Below, piece by piece: positions 7,553 through 56,560 of a stretch of 56,560 nucleotides of DNA. A program made the position numbers and the translations under genes. A model generated the notes under the pieces. It ran no database searches and was not told the origin of the DNA. It saw nothing but the letters and a program-made list of their open reading frames with translations. Within the stretch, counting starts at the first letter, position 1. Each line of letters opens with the position of its first letter. Source of the stretch: a virus; the IMG/VR virus record IMGVR_UViG_3300020179_000002, positions 1-56,560 of that record; one strand, written 5' to 3'.

Positions 7553-9994
7553 ATGGCACAGTCAGGCTACACCCCCATCCTCATCTACGCGAGTGGCACG
7601 GCTGCCGCAGTCCCTTCGGCGGCGAACCTTACCTCTTCCGCTAATGGTGCCGAGCTTGCACTGAACTACAATGATGGCAAGCTTTACTACAAGAACTCTT
7701 CCGGCGTCGTGACGCTCCTGGCCCAGGCTGGCGGCGGCTCCGCAGCCACGCCCACCACACTGGGGACGGTGTATGGGAAGATGACAACGAACGGTGCTGC
7801 GCCTTATCTGACTGCGCTTGGGTATGGTGCCGGGGCCAGCACTACCGGAGCCTATAACACCGCTGTTGGTGTAAACGTATTAAATGCAAATACTACCGGG
7901 ACATTTAACACAGGGATTGGTTATGCCGCTTTAACAAGCGCAACAGGATCAAGAAATACCGCTGTTGGCGGTACTGTTATGCGTATCACTACCGGGTCTG
8001 AAAACGTAGGGATTGGAACTGAAGATGGCGGTGCGGGATATAGCCCGTTTTGGTCAAATACCAGCGGGTCATACAACATTGCTGTTGGTAATGGTGGCCT
8101 TGGTAAAAACACCACTGGTGTTAATAATGTAGCGATAGGTCACAAAGCCCTCTACGACAACACCACCGCTTCCAGCAACACTGCTGTTGGTTATCAAGCA
8201 GGCAACAGCAACACTACTGGAAGCGTGGATGCTTTTGGTTATCAAGCCCTTTACTCCAACACAACCGGCGGAAGTTCTTATAGCAATACTGCTATGGGTT
8301 ATCGTGCCTTGTATAGCAACACAACAGGGCAAGCAAACACAGCGGTTGGCGGCGTTGGAACTTCAACCAACTCTGTGATGTATGCCAACACAACGGGCAG
8401 CTACAACACGGCGCTTGGAAATCAGGCGCTGAGGTCTAAAATCACCGCTTCCTACAACACTGCCATTGGCCAGGATTCCCAGTACTCTGGAACCACGGGG
8501 GACTTCAACGCCTCACTAGGCTATCAGGCACTTTATAACAACACCGGAAATAACAACACAGCAATTGGCGCTCGTGCAATGAACGGCGCCGCTAATACTG
8601 GCAATGAAAATACCGCTGTTGGCGCAATTACGCTCCAAGCCAACACCTCCGGTAATTTGAATGTCGCTGTTGGTTATAACGCTCTTAAAGTCAACACCAC
8701 CGGGTACTACAACACTGCGGTTGGTGCTAATGCGGCTGTTTCAAATACTACAGGTATTGCGCTTGTGGCTATTGGGCAATCCGCAATGCTTGTAAATACC
8801 ACTGGTAATAGAAACATTGCCATTGGTTCAAATGATGGTGCTTTTACCTCGCCGCTTCGCTTTAACCAAACTGGTAGCGACAACATTGCTATTGGTACAG
8901 CGGCTATTGGTGGCAATGGTAATTGTTCACAGAACATTGCCGTAGGTACTGCTGCATTAGGTTCAAACACCACCGGCGCAGGTAACGTCGGTGTTGGGTA
9001 TGAAGCAGGAAAGGCCGTTACAACCGGGTCTTACAACATATTCATGGGCGGAGGTGTTGGAAACGGAGCCTCCGCTATTACCGGAAACTTTAACATCATT
9101 ACCGCAGTTGGGGGTGGCGCTACCAGTCTTACTTCAGGCGTTAAGAACGTGGGGTATGGGCATAAAGTCTTACTAAACGTATCAAGTGGTGGCGCAAATA
9201 TTGCCATCGGCCCATCCGAGGGTGGCGTTGATCGTGGTAATTTGCAGGGTCTTACGACAGGCAGTGGCAATGTAGCCCTTGGCGCAGGAAATCTGGGTAT
9301 CGTGACAACCGGCTCTGGTAATGTGGCTATAGGTGGAAACAACGCCGGAGGATCAATAACAACCGGTCAATCTAATATTTTGATTGGCCCCGGTTCAACT
9401 GGAGGTAGTTTAACAACTGCTGTTAGCAACGTCTTTATTGGCTCTTATCCGGGTGGTGGTGCTGGTTTTGATCCGGGTTATTACATGACCGGGAGTTACA
9501 ACACAATTTTGGCTGCTTGGAATGGCAATCAAGATAGTTTAGACCTCCGTACCTCCAACTCTCAGGTAGTTATTGGCTCACAAAACGGCAATTGGGGCGC
9601 TCGACTTAATGCTACTTCGACCGCTAACTCTTGGTTTCAGCGCAGTAATTCCTCAACATGGGCCACGACTTCAGATCGACGCATCAAGACTAACTTCCAG
9701 CCAGTTACCAACGGTCTTGAAATCATCAACGCATTAAAACCAACCGAGTTTGACTACATTCTCACGGGTCAGCATGACGTGAGCTTTATCGCTCAAGAGT
9801 ACGAAGAGGTTTTGCCTGACCAAGTCGTTGAAGATACGTCAAACAAAAGCGAAGATATGATGGCATTGACCAACGGTGAGCCACTCAAAGTGCTCAGGAA
9901 AAATCTTGACCCATATCTTGTTTCCGCTATTCAAGCCTTGACTGAACAGGTCAATCAGTTAAAGGCTGAAATCGCAACCCTCAAAGGAGCTTAA
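7553..9994 (+). CDS. Tail fibre with YadA-head-like repeats and S74 intramolecular chaperone
   Basis: An 813-aa protein. From about residue 95 to 640 it is a run of 14-25-residue repeats of the form NTAVGxxAL...NTTGxxN.AIG, the pattern of trimeric adhesin (YadA-like) beta-roll heads. Residues about 700-813 form a peptidase S74 / endosialidase-type chaperone: TTSDRRIKTN, then FDYILTG, FIAQEYEEVLPD, and a C-terminal coiled coil (VSAIQALTEQVNQLKAEI). In known S74 proteins the chain is cut before the Ser of the SDRR motif after trimerisation. The gene is visibly more AT-rich than its neighbours, suggesting transfer of a host-range module. It sits between another fibre and the lysis genes. Confidence 0.85.
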   Translation: MAQSGYTPILIYASGTAAAVPSAANLTSSANGAELALNYNDGKLYYKNSSGVVTLLAQAGGGSAATPTTLGTVYGKMTTNGAAPYLTALGYGAGASTTGAYNTAVGVNVLNANTTGTFNTGIGYAALTSATGSRNTAVGGTVMRITTGSENVGIGTEDGGAGYSPFWSNTSGSYNIAVGNGGLGKNTTGVNNVAIGHKALYDNTTASSNTAVGYQAGNSNTTGSVDAFGYQALYSNTTGGSSYSNTAMGYRALYSNTTGQANTAVGGVGTSTNSVMYANTTGSYNTALGNQALRSKITASYNTAIGQDSQYSGTTGDFNASLGYQALYNNTGNNNTAIGARAMNGAANTGNENTAVGAITLQANTSGNLNVAVGYNALKVNTTGYYNTAVGANAAVSNTTGIALVAIGQSAMLVNTTGNRNIAIGSNDGAFTSPLRFNQTGSDNIAIGTAAIGGNGNCSQNIAVGTAALGSNTTGAGNVGVGYEAGKAVTTGSYNIFMGGGVGNGASAITGNFNIITAVGGGATSLTSGVKNVGYGHKVLLNVSSGGANIAIGPSEGGVDRGNLQGLTTGSGNVALGAGNLGIVTTGSGNVAIGGNNAGGSITTGQSNILIGPGSTGGSLTTAVSNVFIGSYPGGGAGFDPGYYMTGSYNTILAAWNGNQDSLDLRTSNSQVVIGSQNGNWGARLNATSTANSWFQRSNSSTWATTSDRRIKTNFQPVTNGLEIINALKPTEFDYILTGQHDVSFIAQEYEEVLPDQVVEDTSNKSEDMMALTNGEPLKVLRKNLDPYLVSAIQALTEQVNQLKAEIATLKGA

Positions 9995-25791: not shown

Positions 25792-25938
25792 CAAGCTATG
25801 TTAGTAGCCACCGGGGGTTTGAACGCCTCCGAGAGGCTCTCCTTGTGATTCTTATTTCGCACACCCGCATGAACCCTATCCCGGTGACGACCTATGTGGC
25901 CCGTGGAGCAGGGTTGCCGTCTGGAACCCCTTAGGACT

Positions 25939-26188
25939 GTTCCATTGTTCCATTACGGTGGAACAGAGATGGAACAGCCTACTGGCTCCGAGGCCCCGTC
26001 GGACGGACGTTCTGAGGCAGTGGTATTCCTGTTCCACTGTTCCATCCAATATATATACATATTCAGGTTCGAAAACACGAATAGTATACGTATATATGCA
26101 TGGAACAATGGAACAATTGCCGAGAGGCCTTGCGTGACGGGGGTTCTGGCCGTTCCATCTGTGTTCCATCATGATGGAACGGTGGAAC
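25939..26188. repeat. GTTCCA/TGGAAC palindromic array A (late-to-early boundary)
   Basis: Twelve 6-bp half-sites in three clusters. Cluster 1: GTTCCA at 25939 and 25947, TGGAAC at 25959 and 25970. Cluster 2: GTTCCA at 26031 and 26039, TGGAAC at 26101 and 26109, enclosing a ~56-bp AT-rich core with GGTTCGAAAAC and TATACGTATATATGCA. Cluster 3: GTTCCA at 26152 and 26163, TGGAAC at 26175 and 26183. Gaps between paired half-sites run 2,5 / 2,2 / 5,2, so the array is a mirror image about its centre. The remaining intergenic DNA (25792-25938) holds only a weak stem GCCTC-CGA-GAGGC at 25825-25837. Origin, packaging or boundary roles are possible. Confidence 0.9.
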
Positions 26189-26210
26189 AAGGGTGGAGCA
26201 ATGCTAAGAC

Positions 26211-26239
26211 TTGCGCTCCGGGGAGAGATGTATTATAAT
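26211..26239 (+). promoter_or_regulatory. Candidate sigma-70 promoter for the primase gene
   Basis: TTGCGC (26211-26216), 17-bp spacer, TATAAT (26234-26239), lying between array A and the primase gene. The leader then has ATAGAGGAAC, the motif shared by many early genes here. It would start transcription of the replication block. Confidence 0.6.
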
Positions 26240-26292
26240 TATACCAGCCCACTGAGGTGGTGTCAATAGTAATAGATAGAGGAACGTAAAGG

Positions 26293-27846
26293 ATGGAAGG
26301 GTTAGTGAACGACTTCGCCGATTTATTCTCGGGGAACCTACGCTCTTACGGGCGATGGGATCCGGTCTCCGGGAACATGTCGACGGTTAAAGGGGAGGTC
26401 TCGAACGACCAGTACCTAGAGCACCTGGAGGGTGGAATCGGGTTGGGGATCGTTCCGGTGACAGACGGTGGCACCTGCAAGTTCGGGGCGATAGATGTGG
26501 ACAAGCACGAGTCGCCGGAGGATATCGATTTCGAGGCGCTGCAAGCCAAGATTAACGAGTACCGGCTCCCGCTGGTGATGTGCCGGACCAAACGCGGGGG
26601 TGCACACTTGTACCTTTTTGGCGAGGAGTACCTCCCGGCTAAGCAAGTGCGACGGGTGCTCGGGTCGTGGCGGGATGTGCTGGGGATCAAGCACAAGACC
26701 GAGATCTTCCCGAAGCAGGATTCGCTAGTCACTTCGGGTGGCGAGAAGGCGTTGGGTAACTGGATTAACCTTTGCTACTTCGACGCCGAGCAGACGCTCA
26801 GGTACGGATTCGACGATGACTGTAACAAGCTCTCGTTCGATCTTTTCCTGCAGTATGCACAGAGCAAGCGCGTTACTGTCGAGCAACTCGCTGAGCTTAC
26901 CCTTCGCGAGCACTTGGAGGCACCCCCTTGTATCCAAAAGATGATCCACTCCGGCGTCGAGTCCGGTGCTCGGAATGAGGCGCTGTACAACGTCACCGTG
27001 TACCTGAAGAGGGCGAGACCCGATAACTTTTTCGACGACGCGGTGGCGCTTAACGGTACGATGTTCGATAAACCGCTCGGGAACGCAGAAGCGAAAAAGG
27101 TTATTCGTTCCGCCTCACGGCGCGACTACCTGTACCGGTGCGCCGAGGAGCCCTGTAAGTCGCTTTGCGATCGTAAGGTATGTGTAACCCGCGAGTTCGG
27201 GATCTCGATGGACGAGAAAAAAGAACTCGACGCCCATGACGCGCTACCTCAGTTCTCGGAGCTGATCGAGTACCTGTCGGACCCGCCCCGGTGGGGGATA
27301 CACGTCAACGGGCAGTTGATTTCGAACATCCCGACCGTAGTGCTGAGGGACCCGAGCCTGATGGGTACGCTCATTTTCGAGCGACTCAAGATAAACATCC
27401 CGAAGATCACCCTCGATAATTGGCGCTCCCGGGTGCTGGATCCGCTGGTACCGAATATCCGGACGATCGAGGTGCCGAAAGAGGCGTCGGCGTCGGGGAT
27501 CGTGCAAGCGAAGTTCGCCGAGTTCGTGCAGAAGGCCGACCTGTCCAAGGACGGGAAGGATACCAATGATCGTAAAGCGCTGCTTCGCAACATCCCGATC
27601 GTGCAGGTCATCGATGGGACGCGTTGCGTGGTGTTCCGGGGAACCGCCTTCTCCGAGTACCTGAAGCGTAATAAAGCCGAGGTCCAGACCGGCATGGATC
27701 TGTGGACCACGCTGCGGCGCGATTGCAACGCTTCACACGACAAAATCCGCGTACCGGGTGGCAAGACCCTGAACGTCTGGTACGCTCCAATCACCGAGGA
27801 ATATGAGGTCAAGGTCGATGAGCCTGAATTTACCACCGAATTCTAA
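26293..27846 (+). CDS. DNA primase, archaeo-eukaryotic (AEP) superfamily
   Basis: A 517-aa protein. The AEP active site is visible: FGAIDVDKH with Asp68 and Asp70 (metal-binding DxD), then RTKRGGAHLYLF with His105 (nucleotide-binding s/GxH), and EIFPKQ near 137-142. Spacing and wording match TOTE-type and phage AEP primases. A four-Cys cluster (C283, C288, C292, C297) probably binds zinc and resembles primase C-terminal zinc elements. The C-terminal third is not recognised. It would make primers for phage replication, working with the helicase gene that overlaps its end. No DnaG- or DnaB-like gene was found. Confidence 0.8.
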   Translation: MEGLVNDFADLFSGNLRSYGRWDPVSGNMSTVKGEVSNDQYLEHLEGGIGLGIVPVTDGGTCKFGAIDVDKHESPEDIDFEALQAKINEYRLPLVMCRTKRGGAHLYLFGEEYLPAKQVRRVLGSWRDVLGIKHKTEIFPKQDSLVTSGGEKALGNWINLCYFDAEQTLRYGFDDDCNKLSFDLFLQYAQSKRVTVEQLAELTLREHLEAPPCIQKMIHSGVESGARNEALYNVTVYLKRARPDNFFDDAVALNGTMFDKPLGNAEAKKVIRSASRRDYLYRCAEEPCKSLCDRKVCVTREFGISMDEKKELDAHDALPQFSELIEYLSDPPRWGIHVNGQLISNIPTVVLRDPSLMGTLIFERLKINIPKITLDNWRSRVLDPLVPNIRTIEVPKEASASGIVQAKFAEFVQKADLSKDGKDTNDRKALLRNIPIVQVIDGTRCVVFRGTAFSEYLKRNKAEVQTGMDLWTTLRRDCNASHDKIRVPGGKTLNVWYAPITEEYEVKVDEPEFTTEF

Positions 27847-29557
27847 AGAAACGAGTATCGATTATGATCCCAAAACCGGACGGTTCATCGTCTCTTCCCC
27901 GCCTTGGCTTCTGGAAAAAGTGCGGCAGATTCCTAATCGTCGTTGGGATTCTCGTCGAAGAGTCTGGACTGCTCCTGCGCTCCGAGCTAATGCTGAGTAT
28001 ATACTCGTGGCTTTTCAGAGCTGTTGTCTCACTGACCGAGCTTCTGCTGCAGCTCAAGCGGCTCTCGAAAAATCCCGCCCTGTTCAGGGCTCAATGTTCC
28101 CGGCTGGTTATACTTTCCGAACGACTCCTCGGCCATATCAGAGACAGGCTCTTGACCGTGCATTCGACAAGAACGTCTTTGCGTATTATATGGACATGGG
28201 TACGGGGAAAACGAAGGTCTCTCTGGACTTGCTAGGCGCATTGTACTTGGACCAAAAGGTAGACCGTCTCCTGGTCGTTACTAAGTTCTCGACCCGCAAG
28301 AACTGGGAGCGTGAGATCGGCATCCATCTGCCCTTTGACGCGGATATCTTGGTGCTCGATACCGCTAAGCCCAGAGTGTTCGAGAAATGGAACACGACGG
28401 TCGACCGGTTCAAGATTCTTATCGTCGGCACCGAGTCTCTCGCCGCAGGGTCCGCCGTAAACTACGCGGACGCATTCCTGATGGTCTCGACTCGGGCCGC
28501 GATGGTGGTGGATGAGGCGCACATGATCAAGAACCATTCGGCGGTAAGGAGTAAGGCTTGCGTCTCGCTCGGCCGCAAAGCCGAGTACCGGTTCATCATG
28601 ACTGGCACCCCGGTAGCGAATGGTCCGATGGACGTTTTCATGCAATTCGAGTTCCTAGACCCAAATATTATTGGTATTGGAGATTATTATTCCTTCCGTA
28701 ATCGCTACGCGGTGATGGGTGGATTCGAGGGAAAGGAGATCGTCGGATACCAGAATCTGGATGAGTTGATCGAACTGATTTCCCCCTTTATCTTCCAGGT
28801 GCGTAAGTCCGAGGTACTTACCGAGTTGCCCCCGAAAGTTTTTACCGTGCGCGAAGTGCAGATGACTGATGAGCAAAAACGATTATATCGACAGATTTCT
28901 AAGGAAGATAAAGCAGTGTCCGGAGACCGGGGCGTCACCGTCAAGTCTGTGCTCGAGCGGATGCTCAGACTACAGGAGATCTGTGGCGGGGTTATTACGT
29001 ACGAGCGCAATCCCGATCTTTATAACCCGAACAAGTACGAGCATTGTCGTGTTTCAGGTAAGAATCCGAAGGTCGAAGAGCTAAAGGCGATAATGGAGGA
29101 GACTGACGGCGCGGTGATCATTTGGTGTCGATTCCTTGAGGAGATCGCGATGGTGAGCGAGTCCTTACGCGAGACTTACGGCCGCAGATCCGTAGTCGAG
29201 ATTCACGGCGAGATTGGGGAGCAGCAGCGAGACGATAACGTCCAGGCATTCCAACGTGGCGAGGCGCGATTCCTGGTCGGCAATGCAGCAACGGGCGGTG
29301 TGGGTCTAAATATGACTCGAGCCGAGACCGTGGTGTATTTCTCAAATTCATTCTCCTTCACCGATCGTGACCAATCCGAAGATCGTGCGCACCGAATAGG
29401 GCAGACGAAGTCGGTGACTTACATCGATCTAGTGTGCGAAGGGTCGGTGGACGAGGTTGTGCTCGATGCGCTACGGAGCAAAAAAGACGTCTCCGAGTAC
29501 GTGCGTCGAAGCATTAACGATGCAAACGGAGATATCTTACGTCAATTACTCTCCTAG
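27818..29557 (+). CDS. SNF2-like superfamily 2 helicase/ATPase
   Basis: A 579-aa SF2 enzyme. An N-terminal HARP-like stretch (YDPKTGRFIV...RRWDSRRRVW) precedes the motor: Q-region RPYQRQALDRA (~105), Walker A MGTGKTK (127-133), DEAH (232-235), TGTP in motif III, and QSEDRAHRIGQ in motif VI. This set is typical of SNF2/SMARCAL1-like DNA translocases in phages, which anneal or remodel forked DNA. I chose ATG 27818 because GAGG lies 9 bases upstream; ATG 27803 is a possible alternative. It overlaps the primase end in another frame, so primase and helicase are translationally linked. Confidence 0.88.
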   Translation: MSLNLPPNSKETSIDYDPKTGRFIVSSPPWLLEKVRQIPNRRWDSRRRVWTAPALRANAEYILVAFQSCCLTDRASAAAQAALEKSRPVQGSMFPAGYTFRTTPRPYQRQALDRAFDKNVFAYYMDMGTGKTKVSLDLLGALYLDQKVDRLLVVTKFSTRKNWEREIGIHLPFDADILVLDTAKPRVFEKWNTTVDRFKILIVGTESLAAGSAVNYADAFLMVSTRAAMVVDEAHMIKNHSAVRSKACVSLGRKAEYRFIMTGTPVANGPMDVFMQFEFLDPNIIGIGDYYSFRNRYAVMGGFEGKEIVGYQNLDELIELISPFIFQVRKSEVLTELPPKVFTVREVQMTDEQKRLYRQISKEDKAVSGDRGVTVKSVLERMLRLQEICGGVITYERNPDLYNPNKYEHCRVSGKNPKVEELKAIMEETDGAVIIWCRFLEEIAMVSESLRETYGRRSVVEIHGEIGEQQRDDNVQAFQRGEARFLVGNAATGGVGLNMTRAETVVYFSNSFSFTDRDQSEDRAHRIGQTKSVTYIDLVCEGSVDEVVLDALRSKKDVSEYVRRSINDANGDILRQLLS

Positions 29558-32944: not shown

Positions 32945-34782
32945 TGAACATCCCACGCATTGACGGCCAAATCCCCTACTTGGTGGTGGACACCGAAACC
33001 ACCGGCCTGAAGTGGTGGGAGGATGAGGTATTCGGAGTCTCGATCGCACTTCCCGACGGCACCGCCGGGTACTGGGATGTACGGGCGACGCCGAAGATCC
33101 TGAATTGGTTAAGCGACCTTATCGCCGAAGATCGGGTCGGGGTGTGGGTCGGGCATAATTTCAAGTTCGACCTGCACTTCCTGCGTGAAGCTCGGGTGAG
33201 AATTCCGACCGACCGGATCGATTGCACGATGATTCGGGCGGCGCTAATCAACGAGCATGAACCGACCTACGGGCTGGATTTCTTGGCGCGGAAATACGTT
33301 GGGGCGCAGAAGGACACGGAGATCTACGATGAACTGGCAAAGATATTTGGGGGTCGTGCTACACGCAACGCGCAGATGCCGAACATTTCACGCGCTCCTC
33401 AAGAGGTCGTGGCGCGGTATGCAATCCAGGACGCGGTAGTCACGCGAAAGCTTTATTTGTGGCAGCGCGACGAGATCGAGAAGCAGAACTTGCATCGAGT
33501 CCATAATCTCGAGCGCGAACTAATGCCCGTCATTATCGACATGGAGACCGAGGGTGTGCGGGTCGACGTCGATATGGCCGAGAGAGCCTCCCGACACCTC
33601 ACGAAGCGCATCAACGACATGCAGCGGGACTTGAATACGGAGGCCGGGTTCGAGATCAACCCGAACCCCTCCGGATCGATCGCGGAGCTATTCAAGCCGA
33701 CCCTAGGGGAAGACAATGAGTGGTACCTGATCGACGGGACCCGGGCAGGGAAGACTGATGGCGGAAAGGCATCAATCGACGCCGATTGCTTGCGTCGTAT
33801 GAAGCACCCAGCGGCGAGCATGATCCTCGATCTCCGCAAAATGCTCAAGACCCGCGACACTTTCATTCAGGGCCATATCCTCGGACACCAGCAGGACGGG
33901 GTGATACACTGCAACTACAACCAGACCAAGAACGATGCGGAGGCTGGGACCGGCACCGGGCGGCTCTCGATCACGAATCCAGCGCTGCAGCAAATCCCGT
34001 CGCGGGACGTATCGATCAAATCGCTCGTGCGCCCGATCTTCAAGGCGGACCACGGCGCGAAATGGCTTGGGCTCGACTGGTCGCAGTTCGAATTCCGGGT
34101 GGCGAATCACTACGGGCAGGTGCCGTCGATCCTGGAAGCTTACCGGGCGAATCCGAATTTGGATTTCCACCAGTTGGTGTCCGACATGACCGGTATTCCC
34201 CGGAACGCGCAGTACGCCGGGGGTCCCTCCTCGAAGGCGATTAATCTCGGGCTTGCTTTTAATATGGGCTCCGGGCGACTGGCCCAAGAGTGTGGACTCC
34301 CCTACACCGAGGAGACGGGGCCGAACGGGAACGCGTACCTGAAGGCGGGACCCGAGGCGATGGAGCTTTTCGAGCGATACCACGCCGCGAACCCCGGGAT
34401 GCGGAACATGGCGAGCAAGGCGAGTTCGATCGCCAAAGAGCGCGGGTTTGTGCACTCGATCATGGGGCGGCATATCCGATTTCCGGGTGGGCAATTCGTC
34501 CACAAGGCGTCGGGACTGATTTACCAAGCGACGTCGGCCGATTGCATGAAGATGAAGCTCATTGAACTGCACCGCTACTTAACCGGTCACGGGGTGGGGC
34601 GGCTGCTGTTGTCCGTGCACGACGAGGTCGGGATCTCGCTCGATAAGGATTCGCTGAATCACGCCGAGAAGATCGCGCAGATTTACACTACGTTTAACGG
34701 TATCGATTGCCCGATCAAGCTCCGGGTACCGATTACCTGTGATTGGGGCTTGGGTGAAGACTGGTACGAGGCAAAAGGATGA
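32944..34782 (+). CDS. dpoZ: DNA polymerase, PolA family with 3'-5' exonuclease (DpoZ-type candidate)
   Basis: A 612-aa family A polymerase. Exonuclease: Asp16/Glu18 (VVDTET), HNFKFD (71-76), YAIQD (Y159, D163), all present. Polymerase: motif A LGLDWSQFEFR (Asp378), motif B with Lys431 in SSKAINLGLAFNMG, motif C HDE (559-561). There is no 5' nuclease domain. Motif B ends FNMG where cellular Pol I has YG. Immediate linkage to purZ, mazZ and datZ places it with DpoZ enzymes, which favour 2-aminoadenine over adenine. That preference is inferred from context, not visible. Start is ATG overlapping the SSB-like stop; TTG at 32941 is unlikely. Confidence 0.9.
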   Translation: MNIPRIDGQIPYLVVDTETTGLKWWEDEVFGVSIALPDGTAGYWDVRATPKILNWLSDLIAEDRVGVWVGHNFKFDLHFLREARVRIPTDRIDCTMIRAALINEHEPTYGLDFLARKYVGAQKDTEIYDELAKIFGGRATRNAQMPNISRAPQEVVARYAIQDAVVTRKLYLWQRDEIEKQNLHRVHNLERELMPVIIDMETEGVRVDVDMAERASRHLTKRINDMQRDLNTEAGFEINPNPSGSIAELFKPTLGEDNEWYLIDGTRAGKTDGGKASIDADCLRRMKHPAASMILDLRKMLKTRDTFIQGHILGHQQDGVIHCNYNQTKNDAEAGTGTGRLSITNPALQQIPSRDVSIKSLVRPIFKADHGAKWLGLDWSQFEFRVANHYGQVPSILEAYRANPNLDFHQLVSDMTGIPRNAQYAGGPSSKAINLGLAFNMGSGRLAQECGLPYTEETGPNGNAYLKAGPEAMELFERYHAANPGMRNMASKASSIAKERGFVHSIMGRHIRFPGGQFVHKASGLIYQATSADCMKMKLIELHRYLTGHGVGRLLLSVHDEVGISLDKDSLNHAEKIAQIYTTFNGIDCPIKLRVPITCDWGLGEDWYEAKG

Positions 34783-35894
34783 AGAAAATCGATTTGGTCA
34801 TTGACCTTCAATTCGGTAGCACAGGTAAGGGGTTGATAGTTGGCACCCTCGCCACCTACGAGGGCTACGACACGGTGATTACCGCGTGGGCACCCAACGC
34901 GGGGCATACGTTCATTGATGCCCGAGGGCGAAAGTTCGTACATACGCATCTGGCCAACGGCATTGTAGCCCCCTACCTTCGTAGGGTACTGTTGGGTCCA
35001 GGCTCGGTCATCAATCCGGCGCAGCTCCTGGCCGAGATCGAGCAGTGCAAGGATATAATCGAGGCAAAGCAGATCAAGATCATGATTCACCCGCATGCAG
35101 CGGTGGTGACTGACGAGCACTTGGAAGAGGAGGCGCAAAGCATGACGGCGATCGGCTCGACCAAGAAGGGCGTGGGCGCGGCGATGATCTCCCGAATCCG
35201 TCGGCAGCCGAACAAACCGGCCGTCGCGAAGGATTTCTTGGAACTCGTAAATCTGGTGTGCACCACCGAGCAGTACACGCGAGCGATCCACGATTCGACC
35301 CATATCCTAATCGAGGGTGCACAGGGTGTGGGGCTTTCCATGTACCACGGCTTTTACCCCTACACCACCTCGCGGGACGTCAGCACCTTCCAGATCCTGG
35401 CCGATTGTGGAATCCCGGCGGCGATCTTCAATCAGGCCTCCTGTCGTGTGGTTGGCACCGCGCGGACCTACCCGATCCGGGTGGCCAATCGATTCGATTC
35501 GGAAGGGCGACAGGTGGGCTTCAGTGGGCCGGGACACCTGGACCAGACCGAGATTTCGTTCGAGCAGATCGGCCAGCCGACCGAACTCACCACGGTGACC
35601 AAGCTCCCCAGGCGCATTTTTACATTCAGTCGCCAGCAGATCCTCGAGGCGATCGACCTTTCGGGCGCGAGTGAAGTGTTCCTGAACTTCGCGAATTATG
35701 TGCAGGACGAACAGTACCTGTTATCGATCGTGAACGCGATCGAGGAGACCGGGGCTCGAATTAAATGGCTGGGTCTAGGTCCAGATATTCACTCGGTGGT
35801 GTTAATGTCCGAAGGTGATAACTACACGGCGCGGCGCAAAGAGATCGTGTCGAAATGGCAGCGTTACCGATTACGCAACAAAGCAGGAGCTTAA
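34779..35894 (+). CDS. purZ: PurZ, (2-amino-deoxy)adenylosuccinate synthase
   Basis: A 371-aa PurA-family enzyme, shorter than bacterial PurA (about 430). The P-loop-like region reads LQFGSTGKG (residues 10-18): Ser14 stands where PurA has its catalytic Asp (GDEGKG). This exchange is the reported mark of PurZ, which condenses dGMP with aspartate to make the precursor of 2-aminoadenine. Other family motifs are kept: NAGHT (His43), GSTKKGVG (126-133), GAQGVGLSM (180-188), YPYTTSRD (193-200). ATG overlaps the polymerase stop (ATGA). Host PurB and kinases would complete dZTP synthesis. Confidence 0.93.
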   Translation: MKKIDLVIDLQFGSTGKGLIVGTLATYEGYDTVITAWAPNAGHTFIDARGRKFVHTHLANGIVAPYLRRVLLGPGSVINPAQLLAEIEQCKDIIEAKQIKIMIHPHAAVVTDEHLEEEAQSMTAIGSTKKGVGAAMISRIRRQPNKPAVAKDFLELVNLVCTTEQYTRAIHDSTHILIEGAQGVGLSMYHGFYPYTTSRDVSTFQILADCGIPAAIFNQASCRVVGTARTYPIRVANRFDSEGRQVGFSGPGHLDQTEISFEQIGQPTELTTVTKLPRRIFTFSRQQILEAIDLSGASEVFLNFANYVQDEQYLLSIVNAIEETGARIKWLGLGPDIHSVVLMSEGDNYTARRKEIVSKWQRYRLRNKAGA

Positions 35895-35897
35895 CTC

Positions 35898-36416
35898 ATG
35901 GCGAATGAATTTATAATGAACTCGTTACTTCATACCAACGAGCAAAACCCCCTCCCCTGGTCCACTCACCCAGATAACGACTCGGTGGTGGTAGATGCCA
36001 ACGGCGCGGCGGTCGCGAACTTCGAGGTGAGGCACCAACACAAGGGGGTACTCGCGAATTGCGAGAAGAATGCAGACTTGGCTGTGCGATCCGTTAACGC
36101 ATTCGCCAAGCGCGGAGGGGCAGATATCCGGCGGCTGCAGCACGTGGTGACCACTTGGGCGGACGAGGTGTTCCCGAATAGACAGACACCTGACATTCTG
36201 CTTAAGCTCTACGAGGAGGTGGGTGAGTACGCCCGTAACCCGAAGGCTGCGGCAGAATTTGCCGATATAATGATTTTGCTGCTCGATCTAGCGGCGATTA
36301 ACGGTATCGATATTCAAAAGGCAGTAACCGAAAAAATGGTAATCAATGTCGGACGTACTTGGGCCGTGGACTCTCAAACCCGTATTATGAGGCATACACA
36401 TGATGAAAAACCGTAA
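35898..36416 (+). CDS. mazZ: MazZ-type MazG-like nucleotide pyrophosphohydrolase (DUF550)
   Basis: A 172-aa protein. Residues ~80-155 form a MazG-like helical domain of DUF550 type: VTTWADEVFPNR, LYEEVGEY (E106, E107, E110) and EFADIMILL (E120, D123), the full EExxE...ExxD metal site, then MVINVGRTW. In Z phages such enzymes turn dGTP into dGMP, the substrate of PurZ. Residues 17-70 form a separate N-terminal segment (NPLPWSTHPDNDSVVVDANG) seen on other phage MazG-like proteins. SD GGAG precedes the start. It lies 3 bp after purZ, which makes the MazZ role likely. Confidence 0.88.
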   Translation: MANEFIMNSLLHTNEQNPLPWSTHPDNDSVVVDANGAAVANFEVRHQHKGVLANCEKNADLAVRSVNAFAKRGGADIRRLQHVVTTWADEVFPNRQTPDILLKLYEEVGEYARNPKAAAEFADIMILLLDLAAINGIDIQKAVTEKMVINVGRTWAVDSQTRIMRHTHDEKP

Positions 36417-36615
36417 TGAAGTATTCGAGATTTGGTATACTCGCCGATTCGGCGAATTATTAGGTGAACAGGACTCGCACACCAGAGAGTTCGTGCGAGA
36501 GATATGGAATCAGGCGCTCAGTCGTGCCGTGGACCACTTCGAGTTCGAGAACTTCGAACCACTTGAAAGTGGGCAGATCATCGACCGACTCGAGCGCCTT
36601 AAAGCGATAAGGTGA
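36400..36615 (+). CDS. Unknown 71-aa protein inside the Z operon
   Basis: A 71-aa charged helical protein (FEIWYTRRFGELLGEQDSHT... then RLERLKAIR) overlapping the mazZ end by 17 bp and ending just before datZ. TGAGG lies 7 bases before the first ATG. No metal-binding, nucleotide or membrane motif is seen. Its fixed place between two Z-pathway enzymes suggests a partner or regulator of one of them, which is inference only. Confidence 0.65.
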   Translation: MMKNRNEVFEIWYTRRFGELLGEQDSHTREFVREIWNQALSRAVDHFEFENFEPLESGQIIDRLERLKAIR

Positions 36616-36620
36616 CCAGG

Positions 36621-37169
36621 ATGGGTCTTTCTCTAGCTGAACAACTCCGTGCTTCGCACGTCAAACGGTGGCAGATCGTCAACGTCTCGCGCACTCAGAA
36701 TCTTGCGGAGCATCATTTTAACGTCACCCTCATCGTCGGTCAACTCGCTCGACACTGCAGGGACAAGCAGCTGCTCGATCCCCAGTACGCGTTGAGGCTC
36801 ATGCACTGGTCGCTCTCGCACGATATGGTCGAGGTTCGCACAGGGGACACCCCTACGCCCTACAAGCGGGTGCTGAAGCAGGTGGGTGGATTGGACATCA
36901 TCGACAATTCCGAGGAGGTCGTGGACCCGGGGTACATCGCCGACAAGCGTCGGATCGCTGGGACGCCGATCGAAATGTACGTGGAGATCGCGGACTTGAT
37001 CGAGGCGATTTGGTTCCTGCATGACCACGGGATCGGGCAGAACGCACTCAAAGTTCAATCGGGTCTTGAGGCGTCGCTCGACCGCTGTGTGCAGAAGTGG
37101 CATGGGGTTTTCGAGGAATTAGATATTGATTTCGCGGTGCGCTGCGTGAGCGAGGAGATCGGAATATGA
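36621..37169 (+). CDS. datZ: DatZ-type HD-domain dATP triphosphohydrolase
   Basis: A 182-aa HD-domain phosphohydrolase. Ligands are visible: His31/His32 in NLAEHHFNV, His67-Asp68 in SHDMVEV, and Asp125 in EIADLIEA. The opening RWQIVNVSRTQNLAEH resembles YfbR-like nucleotidases. In Z phages DatZ removes dATP (to deoxyadenosine and triphosphate), so that dZTP is used instead. I chose ATG 36621 with SD AAGGTGA five bases upstream; a GTG at 36612 would add three residues. The gene is next to purZ and mazZ, which supports DatZ rather than a general nucleotidase. Confidence 0.88.
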   Translation: MGLSLAEQLRASHVKRWQIVNVSRTQNLAEHHFNVTLIVGQLARHCRDKQLLDPQYALRLMHWSLSHDMVEVRTGDTPTPYKRVLKQVGGLDIIDNSEEVVDPGYIADKRRIAGTPIEMYVEIADLIEAIWFLHDHGIGQNALKVQSGLEASLDRCVQKWHGVFEELDIDFAVRCVSEEIGI

Positions 37170-37396: not shown

Positions 37397-38227
37397 ATGA
37401 CCCCGATTTTTTACAATCTCCGCCAGTCCTGCGACTTCGACTTTCCGTCTTATCGCAAGATCCCGATGTTCGTGCGACAGGCCGCGCGACCACTGCTCAC
37501 CGATTTTGAACCGTTGAAGAACGTCGAGATAATCGCCGCGCATTCAATTAAGTACGTGGTGAATGTGTTCTCGGGCAAGACCCCCAATGGATTCGGAAAT
37601 ACCGACCCGGTGCTTAACGAGACACTCAGGTACACGAATGCGAACTTCGTGGCTGCGACCCGGCACGTCAGCGAAAAGAAAGCGGAGGTTGCATGCTCAG
37701 CGACCCAGGGCTTCCACCATGCGGGGTTCGACTCCGGGGGCGGGTATTGCACATTCAACGGGTTGATGATCGCGGCGCTCGGCAGCGAAGCGATCAGACC
37801 GGCGCTAATCTTCGACGGTGATGGCCACTACGGGGATGGGACGGACGATGTCATTGGGGCGCTGGCCACGCACGACCGAGTGCGGCACGTGACGAATCTA
37901 GATATGCGATCGTTCGTCTCGCGCTACAAGCCAAACGCTCATGATTGGGAAGTGTGGGCCTCCGGCTTGATTTCGTCGTCGAAGCCTAGTATAATAATGT
38001 ACCAAGCCGGTGCTGATGCATGGATCGAGGACCCTTATGGTGCTGGGTACCTCACTCTTGAGGGTCTGCGAAATCGTGACCTCGGGATCTTTCGCGCAGC
38101 CAGGAAGTCTAAGATCCCTCTCGTGTGGAATCTCGCCGGTGGATACTGCAAAGATGTTCAGCGCACGGTAGACGTGCATATTCAGACACTCAGAGCCAGC
38201 GACGAGGTGTATTATGGCGGGACCTAG
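37397..38227 (+). CDS. HDAC / acetylpolyamine amidohydrolase-like deacylase
   Basis: A 276-aa protein of the zinc-dependent histone deacetylase superfamily. The active site is intact: His107-His108 (GFHHAG), GGYCTFNG, zinc ligands Asp142 and His144 in DGDGHYGDGTD, Asp207 in YQAGADAWIEDPYG, the LTLEGLRNRD helix, and Tyr250 in NLAGGY. It is shorter than bacterial relatives (about 310-370 aa). It may remove acyl groups from a protein, polyamine or other small molecule. It has its own promoter directly after the Z operon. The substrate cannot be told from sequence. The stop overlaps the next gene by 14 bp. Confidence 0.88.
   Translation: MTPIFYNLRQSCDFDFPSYRKIPMFVRQAARPLLTDFEPLKNVEIIAAHSIKYVVNVFSGKTPNGFGNTDPVLNETLRYTNANFVAATRHVSEKKAEVACSATQGFHHAGFDSGGGYCTFNGLMIAALGSEAIRPALIFDGDGHYGDGTDDVIGALATHDRVRHVTNLDMRSFVSRYKPNAHDWEVWASGLISSSKPSIIMYQAGADAWIEDPYGAGYLTLEGLRNRDLGIFRAARKSKIPLVWNLAGGYCKDVQRTVDVHIQTLRASDEVYYGGT
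37967..37995 (+). promoter_or_regulatory. Possible promoter inside the HDAC-like gene
   Basis: TTGATT (37967-37972), 17-bp spacer, TATAAT (37990-37995), 219 bp before the 882-aa gene. It lacks the shared ATAGAGG leader. It could be chance in a coding region. Confidence 0.35.
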
Positions 38228-42100: not shown

Positions 42101-42129
42101 TTGACGAGTTGTCCTACTGGTGTTATAAT
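42101..42129 (+). promoter_or_regulatory. Strong early-type sigma-70 promoter
   Basis: TTGACG (42101-42106), 17-bp spacer, TATAAT (42124-42129), extended -10 TGT. The leader has CAATAGAGGACAGC before ATG 42163. Confidence 0.88.
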
Positions 42130-42162
42130 ATAGGTTCATCAATCACAATAGAGGACAGCAAA

Positions 42163-43137
42163 ATGGCACACGAACTCGATTTTTCAAATGGTCGCGCGAA
42201 CATGGCTTACGTCGGTCGCACCCCCTGGCACGGACTCGGGCAGGAGCTGGACGCGAACGCGTCTCTTGACACCTGGATCGAGCAAGCGGGGTTTAACTGG
42301 CAAGTCAAGAAGGGTGCGATTCAGTACGAAGTGCGCGACGAGGAGAATCACCCCGTCTGCGTGAATACGGTCCCCAACCGCTGGGCGCTTTATCGCTCGG
42401 ACACCGGCAAACCGCTTTCGGTCATGTCCTCGAACTACTTCATCACCCAGCCACGCGAAGTGATGGAGTTCTTCCGGAACCTGATCGACATCGGCGGGTT
42501 CAAGATGGAGACCGCCGGAATGCTCCGTGGTGGTGCCACCTATTGGGCGCTCGCTCGGATCGACGACTCGTTCGATGTCGGTGGTGGCGACACGATTCGC
42601 CCCTACGTTCAGGTTGCGACTTCGTGCGACGGGACGCTGGCGAACGTTGCCCAGTTTACCTCGGTGCGGACCGTATGCCAGAACACGTTAAATGCTGCGC
42701 TCCGCGAAAGTCAGGGCCAAGTCCGCATTCCGCATTCGACGAAGTTCAACGCAGAACGTGTTAAGGCCGACCTCGGGCTGATCGGCGGGACCTGGGAGCG
42801 GTTCAAGAAAGACGCAGTCGAGCTTTCGAAGCGCACGGTGTCCAAAGCCGAGGCGACCAAGTATTTCCTCGACGTGCTCTACCCCGACCAGGAAGAGGTC
42901 GACCTCGACGCGCATCGCCCGATGCTCGAACTCGTGACTTCGATTTACCTGAACGGCATCGGCCAGAACACCCGCACCGCGCAGGGTACAGCTTGGGGGC
43001 TGGTCAACGCGATCACCCGGTTCACGGACCACGAGCGTAAAGCCACGAGCACAGACACTCGGCTGCAGTCTGCTTGGTTCGGTGCCGGTGCCCGGATGAA
43101 ACGCGATGCATTGACTGCGGCTCTCGCTCTGGTATAA
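42163..43137 (+). CDS. DUF932 family protein
   Basis: A 324-aa protein of the DUF932 phage/plasmid family: AYVGRTPWHGLGQ near the start, a WALYRSDTGKPLSVMSSNYF segment, GGATYWALARID near 125, and CQNTLNAAL near 170. DUF932 proteins are widespread on phages and plasmids, often highly expressed soon after infection, with no proven activity. I start it at ATG 42163 behind the AGAGGAC leader; a frame extension to 42109 would run into the promoter. A new promoter is embedded in its 3' end. Confidence 0.85.
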   Translation: MAHELDFSNGRANMAYVGRTPWHGLGQELDANASLDTWIEQAGFNWQVKKGAIQYEVRDEENHPVCVNTVPNRWALYRSDTGKPLSVMSSNYFITQPREVMEFFRNLIDIGGFKMETAGMLRGGATYWALARIDDSFDVGGGDTIRPYVQVATSCDGTLANVAQFTSVRTVCQNTLNAALRESQGQVRIPHSTKFNAERVKADLGLIGGTWERFKKDAVELSKRTVSKAEATKYFLDVLYPDQEEVDLDAHRPMLELVTSIYLNGIGQNTRTAQGTAWGLVNAITRFTDHERKATSTDTRLQSAWFGAGARMKRDALTAALALV

Positions 43138-44184: not shown

Positions 44185-44760
44185 ATGAACCAGACCACCA
44201 TCACCACCGCTCGTGTAATCCCCACCGACGACCTCGTAAAGATCCTCGCTGTCAAAGGCGGTTGGACCACCGTGGCCGATGTCGGCAATGGTCGCGAGTA
44301 CAAGGTCCGCAATTCCGCTCTGTATATGATCGTCGAGACCCCAGTCAAGCCCCCGGTCTTGGCCGAGGAAGTCCGCGCTCCCCAGACCGTAGTGCGCAGT
44401 TACGATGCCGATGGCACAGGCCCGGTCACGAAGATGAAAGCCGAGAAAGCCGCAGCTGCTGCTCGTCAAAAGCTCCCTCTCGACCAGCGCAAGAACGGCG
44501 TGGTGGATTCGCTCTACCTGCAGTTCTACCAGAATTACAGCAAGACCGTGAACGGCCAAGTCGTCCGCTCGATGGACAAGGGCGATTTCGTGGCGGTCGA
44601 GCTTCGCAAATGCGAAACGCTCGAGCAGGTGTACGCTTTCGTCGCGACCCAGATGGGACTCTCCCGTGCCGATTTGGTCTCCCGGTTCGCTCACCTCAAC
44701 GTCGGCATGCAGCGCATGAACCTCGGCAACATGCTGCGCCGCTACCTCAAAGGAGCATGA
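44185..44760 (+). CDS. Hypothetical protein, possible nucleic-acid binding
   Basis: A 191-aa protein. The N-terminal 60 residues include a small beta-rich part (GGWTTVADVGNGREYKVRN); the rest is basic and helical, with KAEKAAAAARQKLPLDQRKNG, YLQFYQNYSKTVNG and a C-terminal HLNVGMQRMNLGNMLRRYLK. The C-terminal phrase (N-x-G-M/Q-x-R-M-N-L-G-N-x-L-R) is frequent in phage and plasmid proteins of unknown function. Driven by its own strong promoter; probable early DNA- or RNA-binding protein by charge only. Confidence 0.65.
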   Translation: MNQTTITTARVIPTDDLVKILAVKGGWTTVADVGNGREYKVRNSALYMIVETPVKPPVLAEEVRAPQTVVRSYDADGTGPVTKMKAEKAAAAARQKLPLDQRKNGVVDSLYLQFYQNYSKTVNGQVVRSMDKGDFVAVELRKCETLEQVYAFVATQMGLSRADLVSRFAHLNVGMQRMNLGNMLRRYLKGA

Positions 44761-45066: not shown

Positions 45067-45525
45067 ATGAGCTTTGAACTCGCTATCGACGAACACGCCC
45101 CGCGAGGAGTCGGAGACCCCTTTTACATTCCGTGGTGGGCGAAAATTCGCCAACTCGACGGCGATGCGAAAACGTACCGTGCCTGGGACGGCACCGAAAT
45201 CCGAGGTGGGAAAATCGTCTCGCGTGGTGCCTCCTTCCGAGGGTTCGAGGCCGTGATGCGCACGAAGCCCGAGGTCGCTCCGGAAGAGATAGCCCCGTCG
45301 AGCCCACGGAAGGTACCTCCGTTGCATTCGAAGCCCCGGGTTAAGGCTAATGTACCTGACTGGGCCTCCGATGCGCTCCGTGAGGCCGGGAAGTGCCCCG
45401 ACGCTCGTTCAAGGCTCTGCGCCCAGTACGGCATCGACTACGCGACGCTCGTCGAGGGAGCACCGAATGCTGGGGTGGCTACGATGCGGATCGTGAACGC
45501 GCTCCGCCGTTCGTCGAAAGGCTGA
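45067..45525 (+). CDS. Hypothetical protein
   Basis: A 152-aa protein with start ATG 45067 chosen for its SD GTGGAGGAC; a GTG at 44965 in the same frame, overlapping the previous gene, would add 34 Pro-rich residues and cannot be excluded. An N-terminal part with FYIPWWAKIRQLDG, a Pro/Lys-rich linker near 75-95, and a C-terminal helical domain (DWASDALREAGKC, YGIDYATLVEGA). The last part looks like a helix-turn-helix but is not certain. Its stop adjoins operator-like copy 2. Confidence 0.6.
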   Translation: MSFELAIDEHAPRGVGDPFYIPWWAKIRQLDGDAKTYRAWDGTEIRGGKIVSRGASFRGFEAVMRTKPEVAPEEIAPSSPRKVPPLHSKPRVKANVPDWASDALREAGKCPDARSRLCAQYGIDYATLVEGAPNAGVATMRIVNALRRSSKG

Positions 45526-46287: not shown

Positions 46288-46473
46288 ATGGCAAAACGGT
46301 TAAATGAGATGGCCCTAGTGCGGGTCGCCCAAGAAATGAAAGCCAAGGCGGAGCGTTACCCCACTTGCGGGTACCGCAAAATCGCGGCGATGCTCAGGCT
46401 CGACGGGTGGGCAGTCACCGATGCGCAGGTGAGACGCTTGTGGTGGCTGGCCGGGATGAGGGCTCAATTGTGA
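46288..46473 (+). CDS. Stand-alone HTH protein, IS3-transposase-like
   Basis: A 61-aa basic protein. Residues 22-57 (RYPTCGYRKIAAMLRLDGW, then VRRLWWLAGMR) match the HTH segment found before the catalytic core of IS3-family transposases (YGYRRI...GW.V...RV.RLM...GL). No transposase core follows, and no inverted repeats of an insertion sequence were seen. Hence it is probably a free DNA-binding protein, possibly for the nearby arrays or operators. It overlaps the nuclease gene by four bases (GTGA). Confidence 0.65.
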   Translation: MAKRLNEMALVRVAQEMKAKAERYPTCGYRKIAAMLRLDGWAVTDAQVRRLWWLAGMRAQL

Positions 46474-46931
46474 GCGCGGAAAAGAACCTCTGGGGCTGGC
46501 TCGACCTGCGCCTCGGGGGTCATTGGTTCGCCCAACGAGTCGAGAACGAGGTTGGGCGCGACACCCCGGACGTCTGGTTCGCGCTGTACAAGCTCCGCGC
46601 GGTCTCGGGCTGGATCGAACTCAAGGTCCTCACCGACCTGCCCAAGCGCCCCGGCACCCCTCTCCGGCTCCCAAAGTGGACCTCCGGGCAGCGCAACTGG
46701 GCGGTGTCCGCGCACCGGCACGGTGCTTGGTGCTTCCTGGGGCTGCAGGTGCTCGAACGCCAGGAATTCTTCCTGATCCCCGGGCATGAGGCGGCACGAC
46801 TGGTCGAAATGCAGGTGCCGTACGAGGAGACGCTGCACAAACTCCGCGTCCGAGGGCTGTGCATAGACCAAAAAACTTCACGTGAAACACAAACCCAACA
46901 CCTAATTGACACGCTGCACCAGCCGTGGTAA
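46470..46931 (+). CDS. PD-(D/E)XK nuclease-like protein
   Basis: A 153-aa protein starting with GTG overlapping the HTH stop. A nuclease core is visible: Glu25 in RVENEVG, Asp34 in DTPDVWF, Glu50-Leu-Lys52 in GWIELKV, and Gln74 in SGQRNW, then a hydrophobic strand CFLGLQV. This is the E...PD...ExK...Q order of small phage VRR-NUC/Holliday-junction type nucleases. It may resolve replication or packaging intermediates. Last early gene, next to array B. A late-type promoter overlaps its end. Confidence 0.72.
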   Translation: MSAEKNLWGWLDLRLGGHWFAQRVENEVGRDTPDVWFALYKLRAVSGWIELKVLTDLPKRPGTPLRLPKWTSGQRNWAVSAHRHGAWCFLGLQVLERQEFFLIPGHEAARLVEMQVPYEETLHKLRVRGLCIDQKTSRETQTQHLIDTLHQPW

Positions 46932-46934
46932 GAT
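46906..46934 (+). promoter_or_regulatory. Candidate promoter for the late block
   Basis: TTGACA (46906-46911), 17-bp spacer, TAAGAT (46929-46934). The -10 differs from the early set and has no TGn, and no ATAGAGG leader follows. It could start transcription through array B into the terminase genes. Confidence 0.6.
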
Positions 46935-47024
46935 TCGTGGATCTGCCCTCCCCGGGCGGTGTGTAGCACCCTCGCTACACTGGCCGAGATAAGTCTCGCG
47001 CCGTCTTGGCAGCAGCCGAGAAGT

Positions 47025-47276
47025 GTTCCATCGTTCCACCATAATGGAACACAGATGGAACGGCCAAAAGCCCCGTACGACGGACCAGAGAGCCAAGTGT
47101 TCCATTGTTCCATGCATATATACGTATATATTTTTGGTTCGAAAACCTGAATATGGGGGGATATGAGATGGAACGGTGGAACAGAAGAGGGTACTTGAAG
47201 AGAAGCCCCGAGGGACGGGGCCTTTGGACCAGTGGGGTTGTTCCATTGCTGTTCCATTGTGGTGGAACGATGGAAC
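47025..47276. repeat. GTTCCA/TGGAAC palindromic array B (early-to-late boundary)
   Basis: Twelve half-sites in three clusters: GTTCCA 47025, 47033, TGGAAC 47045, 47056; GTTCCA 47099, 47107, TGGAAC 47169, 47177; GTTCCA 47240, 47251, TGGAAC 47263, 47271. Gaps are again 2,5 / 2,2 / 5,2. The AT-rich core, read on the other strand, shares TATACGTATATATGCA and the adjoining TGGAACAATGGAACA with array A; the spacer by cluster 1 also matches that by cluster 3 of array A in reverse. A stem GCCCCG/CGGGGC lies at 47205-47221. The other intergenic DNA (46935-47024) holds no gene. Confidence 0.9.
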
Positions 47277-47280
47277 GGAT

Positions 47281-47457
47281 ATGACCACACCCGTACTACA
47301 CCTGCAGACTTCCAGACGACAAGGTATCGTCATCCACCACGCAGGGCTACACCTCGGTATCGCACGTAAACGCGTAAAAGGTGAGTTCGAAACATTTGAC
47401 GGAACAGTTGCGGAACGTGTTGCTTTTATGGTACACTTCGCGTCATGGCTGGAGTGA
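47281..47457 (+). CDS. Possible small protein before terminase
   Basis: A 58-aa frame (MTTPVLHLQTSRRQGIVIHH at the start) that begins five bases after the last half-site of array B and overlaps the small terminase start. It is basic, with His-rich HHAGLHLG. No clear Shine-Dalgarno is seen (only GGAACGG from the array), so it may not be translated. Confidence 0.4.
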   Translation: MTTPVLHLQTSRRQGIVIHHAGLHLGIARKRVKGEFETFDGTVAERVAFMVHFASWLE

Positions 47458-48140
47458 AAATCGAACCTTTGCCGGTGGTGGACGTCGACGCGGTGGGTGA
47501 AGAAACACTGCGGGAATACGGACGCCGCGCGGGGATAACGTACGCGATGCTTTACGAAATGGTGAAGCAAGACCGTGTTCGTTTTAAGGAGCGTGGAGTC
47601 GAGGATGATCCTGAATCGCTAAAATTCTGCGTCCCAGGTGTTGAGGGCGTGGGGCGGCTTCGCCGTTATGAGCGTACCAAAGCCTATCGCATGTTGCAGA
47701 TCCTGGCCGAGTTCAGGGATGGACCCGCAAACGAGAAATTTTCTTTAAGACACGCGTACACGGCGGCTGATGTCAGTCGTGGTGCGATGACGACGTGGAG
47801 GGCTGAACATCCGACCTTCGATCGTCTGATGGAAGACATCCAACTCGAAATGGTCGACACGATGAAAGCCGAAGCTTACCGTCGCTCAGTAATCGGACAT
47901 GACGAACCGTTGGTGCATCAAGGTGTAAAGACTGGTGAAACGATTAAGAAGTTCTCCGACTCCTTGCTGCAGTTCACGCTGATGGGGTACGACGCGAAAT
48001 TCCGAGCCAAAGACGTTAACGTTGCGGTATCGGGCTCACTTAACCAGAATGTAAACATTGAGGGACTCCGTGATCGACTTGCCCAGCGATTACAGGCGGT
48101 CGCCAAGTCAAAGGTACAAGGCGAAGAAAACGCCGATTGA
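47445..48140 (+). CDS. terS: Terminase small subunit
   Basis: A 231-aa protein directly before the large terminase. Near residues 95-160 it has a helix-turn-helix region (RHAYTAADVSRGAMTTWRA) and, after that, MVDTMKAEAYRRSVIGHDEP, VHQGVKTGE and FSDSLLQFTLMGYDAKFR. The last phrase is the usual C-terminal pattern of phage small terminases (YSD-LL-x-LKA-x-P-xKYR). It should bind the packaging site and feed DNA to TerL; array B, 170 bp upstream, is a candidate site. It overlaps the terL start by about 70 bp. Confidence 0.8.
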   Translation: MAGVKIEPLPVVDVDAVGEETLREYGRRAGITYAMLYEMVKQDRVRFKERGVEDDPESLKFCVPGVEGVGRLRRYERTKAYRMLQILAEFRDGPANEKFSLRHAYTAADVSRGAMTTWRAEHPTFDRLMEDIQLEMVDTMKAEAYRRSVIGHDEPLVHQGVKTGETIKKFSDSLLQFTLMGYDAKFRAKDVNVAVSGSLNQNVNIEGLRDRLAQRLQAVAKSKVQGEENAD

Positions 48141-56433: not shown

Positions 56434-56560
56434 TTTAGGAGATATCGATGTCTGCAACATCTGCTCCGTTTGGCTTGCGTCCAGCATTTCACCCGTCGGG
56501 TCTGGACAGAGCTGCCGCGCTTGCCAACGGTATTCAGGCCGTTTCCACTTCCGGAAACGT
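56434..56560. repeat. Direct terminal repeat (circular assembly overlap), right copy
   Basis: Identical to bases 1-127. It contains the first 113 bp of the gene starting at base 15 (here ATG at 56448), which is cut only by the window end. Not a separate gene copy. Confidence 0.9.

Follow-up and report, generated by a model that had tools for sequence, protein, structure and literature searches.

Bacteriophage SPP1 replicates from two origins, oriL and oriR, which are of similar repeat organization and are bound by the same protein (PMC6316719). One of them lies within the replication genes and the other in the late region, about 12 to 13 kb away, and the phage packages its DNA by a headful mechanism (PMC6316719, PMC3485210). 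The origins of PICI/SaPI elements, considered here by their described layout, have a central element with a set of short iterons on either side, and iteron plasmid origins consist of clustered repeats adjoining a region of opening. The DNA analyzed here, hereafter the window, is the whole 56,560-nucleotide stretch of the IMG/VR virus record IMGVR_UViG_3300020179_000002, and it holds two arrays of a short word, A and B, that resemble each of these systems in part. As in SPP1, two distant sites of similar repeat organization occur in one phage genome, and by this analogy oriL/oriR is the most likely closest functional model for the arrays. The pair differs from that of SPP1 in that its short words are mirrored about a centre, that the two sites are 21 kb apart in a genome predicted to contain 2-aminoadenine, and that no DnaB-family replicative helicase (PF03796) was found in the seven genomes checked and no initiator was recognized. 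With PICI/SaPI origins the arrays share the iteron sets around a central element, and unrelated elements with VapE-like helicases have arrays of the same word. However, two arrays are present per genome here, they lie upstream of the primase (A) and of terS (B) rather than directly 3' of a rep gene, no VapE-like family (PF05272) was found in the same seven genomes, and the centre is A+T-rich mainly in the window clade. Unlike the clustered repeats of iteron plasmids, the arrays are mirrored and paired within each genome, and no plasmid-type Rep was recognized.

Array B (47024 to 47277) comprises 12 GTTCCA cores. Each of its two outer blocks has four of them, the first two pointing right and the next two left; inward of these blocks, a rightward pair on the left and a leftward pair on the right, both in tandem, face each other across a centre. 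The left outer block (47024 to 47062) has sites at 47024 and 47032 on the plus strand and at 47045 and 47056 on the minus strand, and is followed by the left inner tandem pair (47098 to 47112, plus strand, 8-bp period). The centre (47113 to 47168) is 56 bp long with 66% A+T, compared with 44.6% for the genome. Beyond it lie the right inner tandem pair (47169 to 47183, minus strand, 8-bp period) and the right outer block (47239 to 47277), with sites at 47239 and 47250 on the plus strand and at 47263 and 47271 on the minus strand. Array A (25938 to 26189) also has 12 cores, and its 56-bp centre (26045 to 26100; 71% A+T) ranks near the top of the genome for A+T content at that length. The array centres, for example 47113 to 47168, look tripartite, with an alternating purine-pyrimidine end, a middle of CTGTC..GACAG or GGTTCGAAAACC, and a G-run end.

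The initial annotation described array B as repeating the twelve-site grammar of array A, which the spacing bears out. The steps between sites in array A (8, 13, 11, 60, 8, 63, 8, 42, 11, 13, 8) recur in reverse in array B (8, 13, 11, 42, 8, 63, 8, 62, 11, 13, 8), the sole exception being 62 versus 60, where the step of 62 omits a one-mismatch site, TGGTCCA, at 47225. Outside the arrays, no 250-bp stretch of the whole window has more than two GTTCCA cores, and 200 first-order Markov simulations of the genome reached a maximum of 4, versus 12 in each real array. Local alignment of A to B scored 191 with one array reverse-complemented and 85 directly, whereas shuffled sequences reached no more than 30; masking of the words left 48 for the inverted and 33 for the direct alignment. 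That a direct match exists at all is explained by the quasi-palindromic nature of each array. The inverted match therefore dominates, but the earlier wording that sequence is shared only when reverse-complemented was slightly too strong.

All main ORFs of the window are on the plus strand. The first gene to the right of array A encodes an AEP primase (PrimPol; 26293 to 27846, plus strand), followed by an SNF2-type helicase (27803 to 29557, plus strand) that belongs to the conserved core of the replication block. The last gene before array B (46365 to 46931, plus strand) belongs to a PHROG "DNA helicase" family, and we infer that its product is a PD-(D/E)XK/VRR-NUC-like nuclease; the first gene beyond the array encodes the terminase small subunit (TerS; 47445 to 48140, plus strand). 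Between the arrays lie genes for PrimPol, SNF2 helicase, a UvrD-type helicase, PolA, an SSB-like protein, PurZ, MazZ-like and DatZ-like proteins and proteins of no assigned function, and outside them those for TerS, TerL, portal, head and tail proteins. In the window, the arrays thus bracket the early block as proposed, with replication and nucleotide genes inside and structural genes outside. The presence of the PurZ, MazZ-like and DatZ-like genes, which are consecutive (34779 to 37169), predicts that 2-aminoadenine replaces adenine in the phage genome. The early block also encodes a histone-deacetylase-like protein (37397 to 38227; Pfam, 4e-21), and a 61-amino-acid ORF (46288 to 46473) that reads as helix-turn-helix-like occurs in the closest relatives only. 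An exact 127-bp terminal repeat (1 to 127 and 56434 to 56560), with counterparts of 87 to 127 bp in five relatives, is probably the overlap of a circular assembly of about 56.4 kb.

The window showed no DNA similarity to known phages, and no relatives were found among genome contigs. Relatives were gathered through PrimPol, which gave 52 viral-contig loci, and the 29 larger ones were read. Both arrays are present in 26 of these 29 IMG/VR contigs, whose completeness is not certified; the three with a single array all lack a detected terS, and no contig covering both regions has one array alone. The A-B orientation is inverted in all 27 pairs (the window and 26 contigs), and 26 of 26 genomes encode PrimPol and TerS/TerL on one and the same strand. 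The length of the centre varies between 46 and 67 bp and is mostly 54 to 58 bp. Its composition is A+T-rich in the window clade and near the genome average in most other clades, so A+T-richness is apparently no general requirement.

Within each genome, the main word class is the same in A and B (TGTTCCA, TGTTACA or TGTATCC). Most genomes are of the GTTCCA class, with GTTACA in G008, G015 and G026 and GTATCC in G021, G023, G024 and G025. Since the relatives share kinship, these classes do not represent 26 independent events. The two arrays of one genome are more alike than the A arrays of distant subclades, most clearly in G008, where the score between its own A and B is 143 and that with the best distant A is 104. 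The joint difference in word class suggests that one protein may bind both arrays. A few GTTCCA sites persist in genomes of the GTATCC class, most of them in the outer blocks, perhaps an indication that the arrays contain sub-sites of two kinds.

Array pairs are also present in cultured PurZ phages, namely Salmonella PMBT28, Klebsiella VLCpiS6a, Pseudomonas PSA28, Providencia Kokobel2 and Acinetobacter SH-Ab 15497. In the first four, one array of GTTCCA or GGTTCC words lies upstream of the primase and a second one about 2 kb ahead of terS, in direct orientation. In SH-Ab 15497 the word is GGTTGC, with one array preceding the primase and the other immediately preceding terS; its pair is inverted, as is that of Barton, whose arrays were missed by the word count and were found solely by aligning the two intergenic regions. 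The window and the cultured phages have about 13 early proteins in common, the replication core of PrimPol, SNF2, UvrD, PolA, SSB-like protein, PurZ, MazZ, DatZ, the nuclease-like protein, g44185 and three of no assigned function; the window TerS is not among them, and the terS genes of PMBT28, VLCpiS6a, PSA28 and Kokobel2 have no detectable relation to that of the window. The array pair therefore tracks the replication module and not TerS, and is independent of terS and of the relative orientation of the arrays. The placement of the arrays at block boundaries holds less strictly than their pairing, given that in the enteric relatives array B lies inside the early block and not at its exact end.

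Two arrays with a common grammar, linked to the replication core and differing jointly in their word from genome to genome, make up the observed core of the case. The pair stays with the replication core in the 26 related contigs and in the cultured phages and has an iteron-origin layout, which favors the paired origins among the functions initially proposed. On this comparison of sequences, arrays A and B are probably paired iteron-type replication origins. A putative phage-encoded initiator would bind the tandem words of 8-bp period that flank each centre of near-fixed length, and once bound it would give the phage primase and helicases access to the centre by wrapping or distorting the DNA and opening it there. 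By analogy with SPP1, replication would start in theta mode at array A, which adjoins the PrimPol-SNF2-PolA operon. Array B could be a second origin, or a bound barrier at which forks stall and switch to the synthesis of concatemers for headful packaging. Binding, melting, firing and this division of labor between A and B are all inferred. GC-skew steps at A and B, the only computational proxy for replication start, gave an ambiguous pattern, and it counts against origins that both arrays adjoin promoter-like sequences, as operators would. The near-average A+T content of the centre in most other clades speaks against origins too, as do the absence of VapE-like and DnaB families from the seven genomes checked and the other replication genes, or none seen, in some unrelated elements that have the pattern.

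Operators are the main rival to origins. A single phage protein could bind both arrays and switch transcription of the early block at A and of the late block at B, perhaps by looping, with no role in replication. Each array does lie in an intergenic gap, A ahead of the first early gene and B ahead of the first late one. A perfect sigma-70-like promoter of the extended type, TTGACA-17-TGGTATAAT (26238 to 26266, minus strand), adjoins array A; it matches the consensus at 11 to 12 of 12 positions in most relatives, where it often overlaps a weaker plus-strand promoter toward PrimPol. At array B, a promoter-like sequence, TTGACA-17-TAAGAT (10 of 12 matches, TG; 46906 to 46934, plus strand), overlaps the nuclease-like gene at its end. 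Promoters next to B also occur in several lineages, as well as in the enteric relatives. Because sigma-70-like promoters adjoin both arrays, the arrays may be transcription borders instead. Both promoters read into their arrays and, B being A inverted, enter the same array end. The strongest promoter at A, however, faces the array and points away from PrimPol, and no minus-strand gene was recognized beyond it. Twelve mirrored sites about a centre of near-fixed length would be unusual for a one-way promoter. The position of B within the early block of the enteric relatives also argues against operators, as do the similar arrays that accompany VapE-like replicases in two unrelated elements. We regard operators as a possible but rather unlikely explanation. 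A search of the spacers for terminators gave some hairpins and one weak terminator-like site only, with mostly weak z-scores, and the Rfam search returned nothing at the gathering threshold.

Array B as a pac site recognized by TerS is a far more doubtful proposal. In its favor, B lies a short way ahead of terS both in the window clade and in SH-Ab 15497, and PMBT28 has been described as a pac-type phage (PMC6025938). Packaging is nevertheless disfavored, because an equal array A is found 21 kb away with no terS nearby and because about 2 kb separate array B from terS in PMBT28, VLCpiS6a, PSA28 and Kokobel2, phages whose terS shows no detectable similarity to the one in the window. Still more improbable is the idea that the arrays are inverted recombination sites that flip the 21-kb early block. 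They are indeed inverted copies in the window clade and in the Acinetobacter phages, and the sequence shared by A and B beyond the words is compatible with occasional gene conversion. The suggested inversion is disfavored, however, because gene strands are the same in 26 of 26 genomes, with no inverted isomer seen among them, no integrase or resolvase families were found in the seven genomes checked, and the enteric relatives have direct pairs. Centromere-like partition sites of a phage-plasmid are just as improbable: short-word arrays resemble parS or heptad centromeres in general form, but none of the core genes was noticed to encode a partition protein, and those seven genomes yielded no integrase.

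Returning to paired origins, candidates for the protein that binds the words were sought by co-variation, presence or absence, and structure. A co-variation search of 15 families in up to 36 genomes for residues tracking the GTTACA class gave scattered single residues and no convincing candidate. The DUF932 protein (42109 to 43137) is encoded in 18 of 19 GTTCCA-class genomes and is absent from the other word classes and from the cultured relatives; it was rejected because PMBT28 has the same word without it. The proteins at 44185 to 44760 (g44185) and 45067 to 45525 have similar C-terminal motifs, LNxGMQRMNLGN and APNxGVAxMRLxNALR, and the domain with the first motif is widespread in other phages. 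The AlphaFold model of g44185 (mean pLDDT, 69) gave only weak SH3-like Foldseek matches, and its sequence had no match in the PDB. PDB sequence matches were marginal only for the gp33-like protein, and there were none for the gp34-like protein.

The literature searched gave neither a replication origin for PurZ phages nor a description of a two-origin replicon of 2-aminoadenine phages. The pair may, more tentatively, belong to such a replicon, in which an origin-binding protein of a new family would read the words, concerted evolution of the arrays would create replication-incompatibility groups, the second array would be a programmed fork barrier, and the type of origin would be common to unrelated phage satellites; we consider this combination unlikely as a whole. 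If the arrays are origins, they predict where replication begins in several cultured phages, among them an Acinetobacter baumannii phage and a Salmonella phage, and it may be asked how strands separate at an origin whose A:T pairs have a third hydrogen bond. The word classes would offer a natural system in which to follow the joint change of initiator and sites. Mirrored arrays of this kind may also mark origins more widely in phages and satellites.

A pattern search for two tandem word pairs facing each other across 45 to 75 bp matched 52 stretches, 44 with relatives of this phage group and 8 without. Among the unrelated elements, L332 encodes a primase-like protein, and its array immediately follows the gene of the replicase, a VapE-like helicase. 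G034 encodes a VapE-like helicase, G039 D5/DUF5906 proteins and G035 a DnaG-type primase, and some of the unrelated elements have other replication genes or none that was seen. Among the relatives of the window, additional clusters of five and six words occur in G017 and G013, respectively. In G007, G014 and G018, the word TTATAAC recurs in the interval from array B to terS, where it is perhaps a late-promoter element. In L053, six CTATCAC words (9766 to 9862) upstream of a distant PrimPol are perhaps another version of the array.
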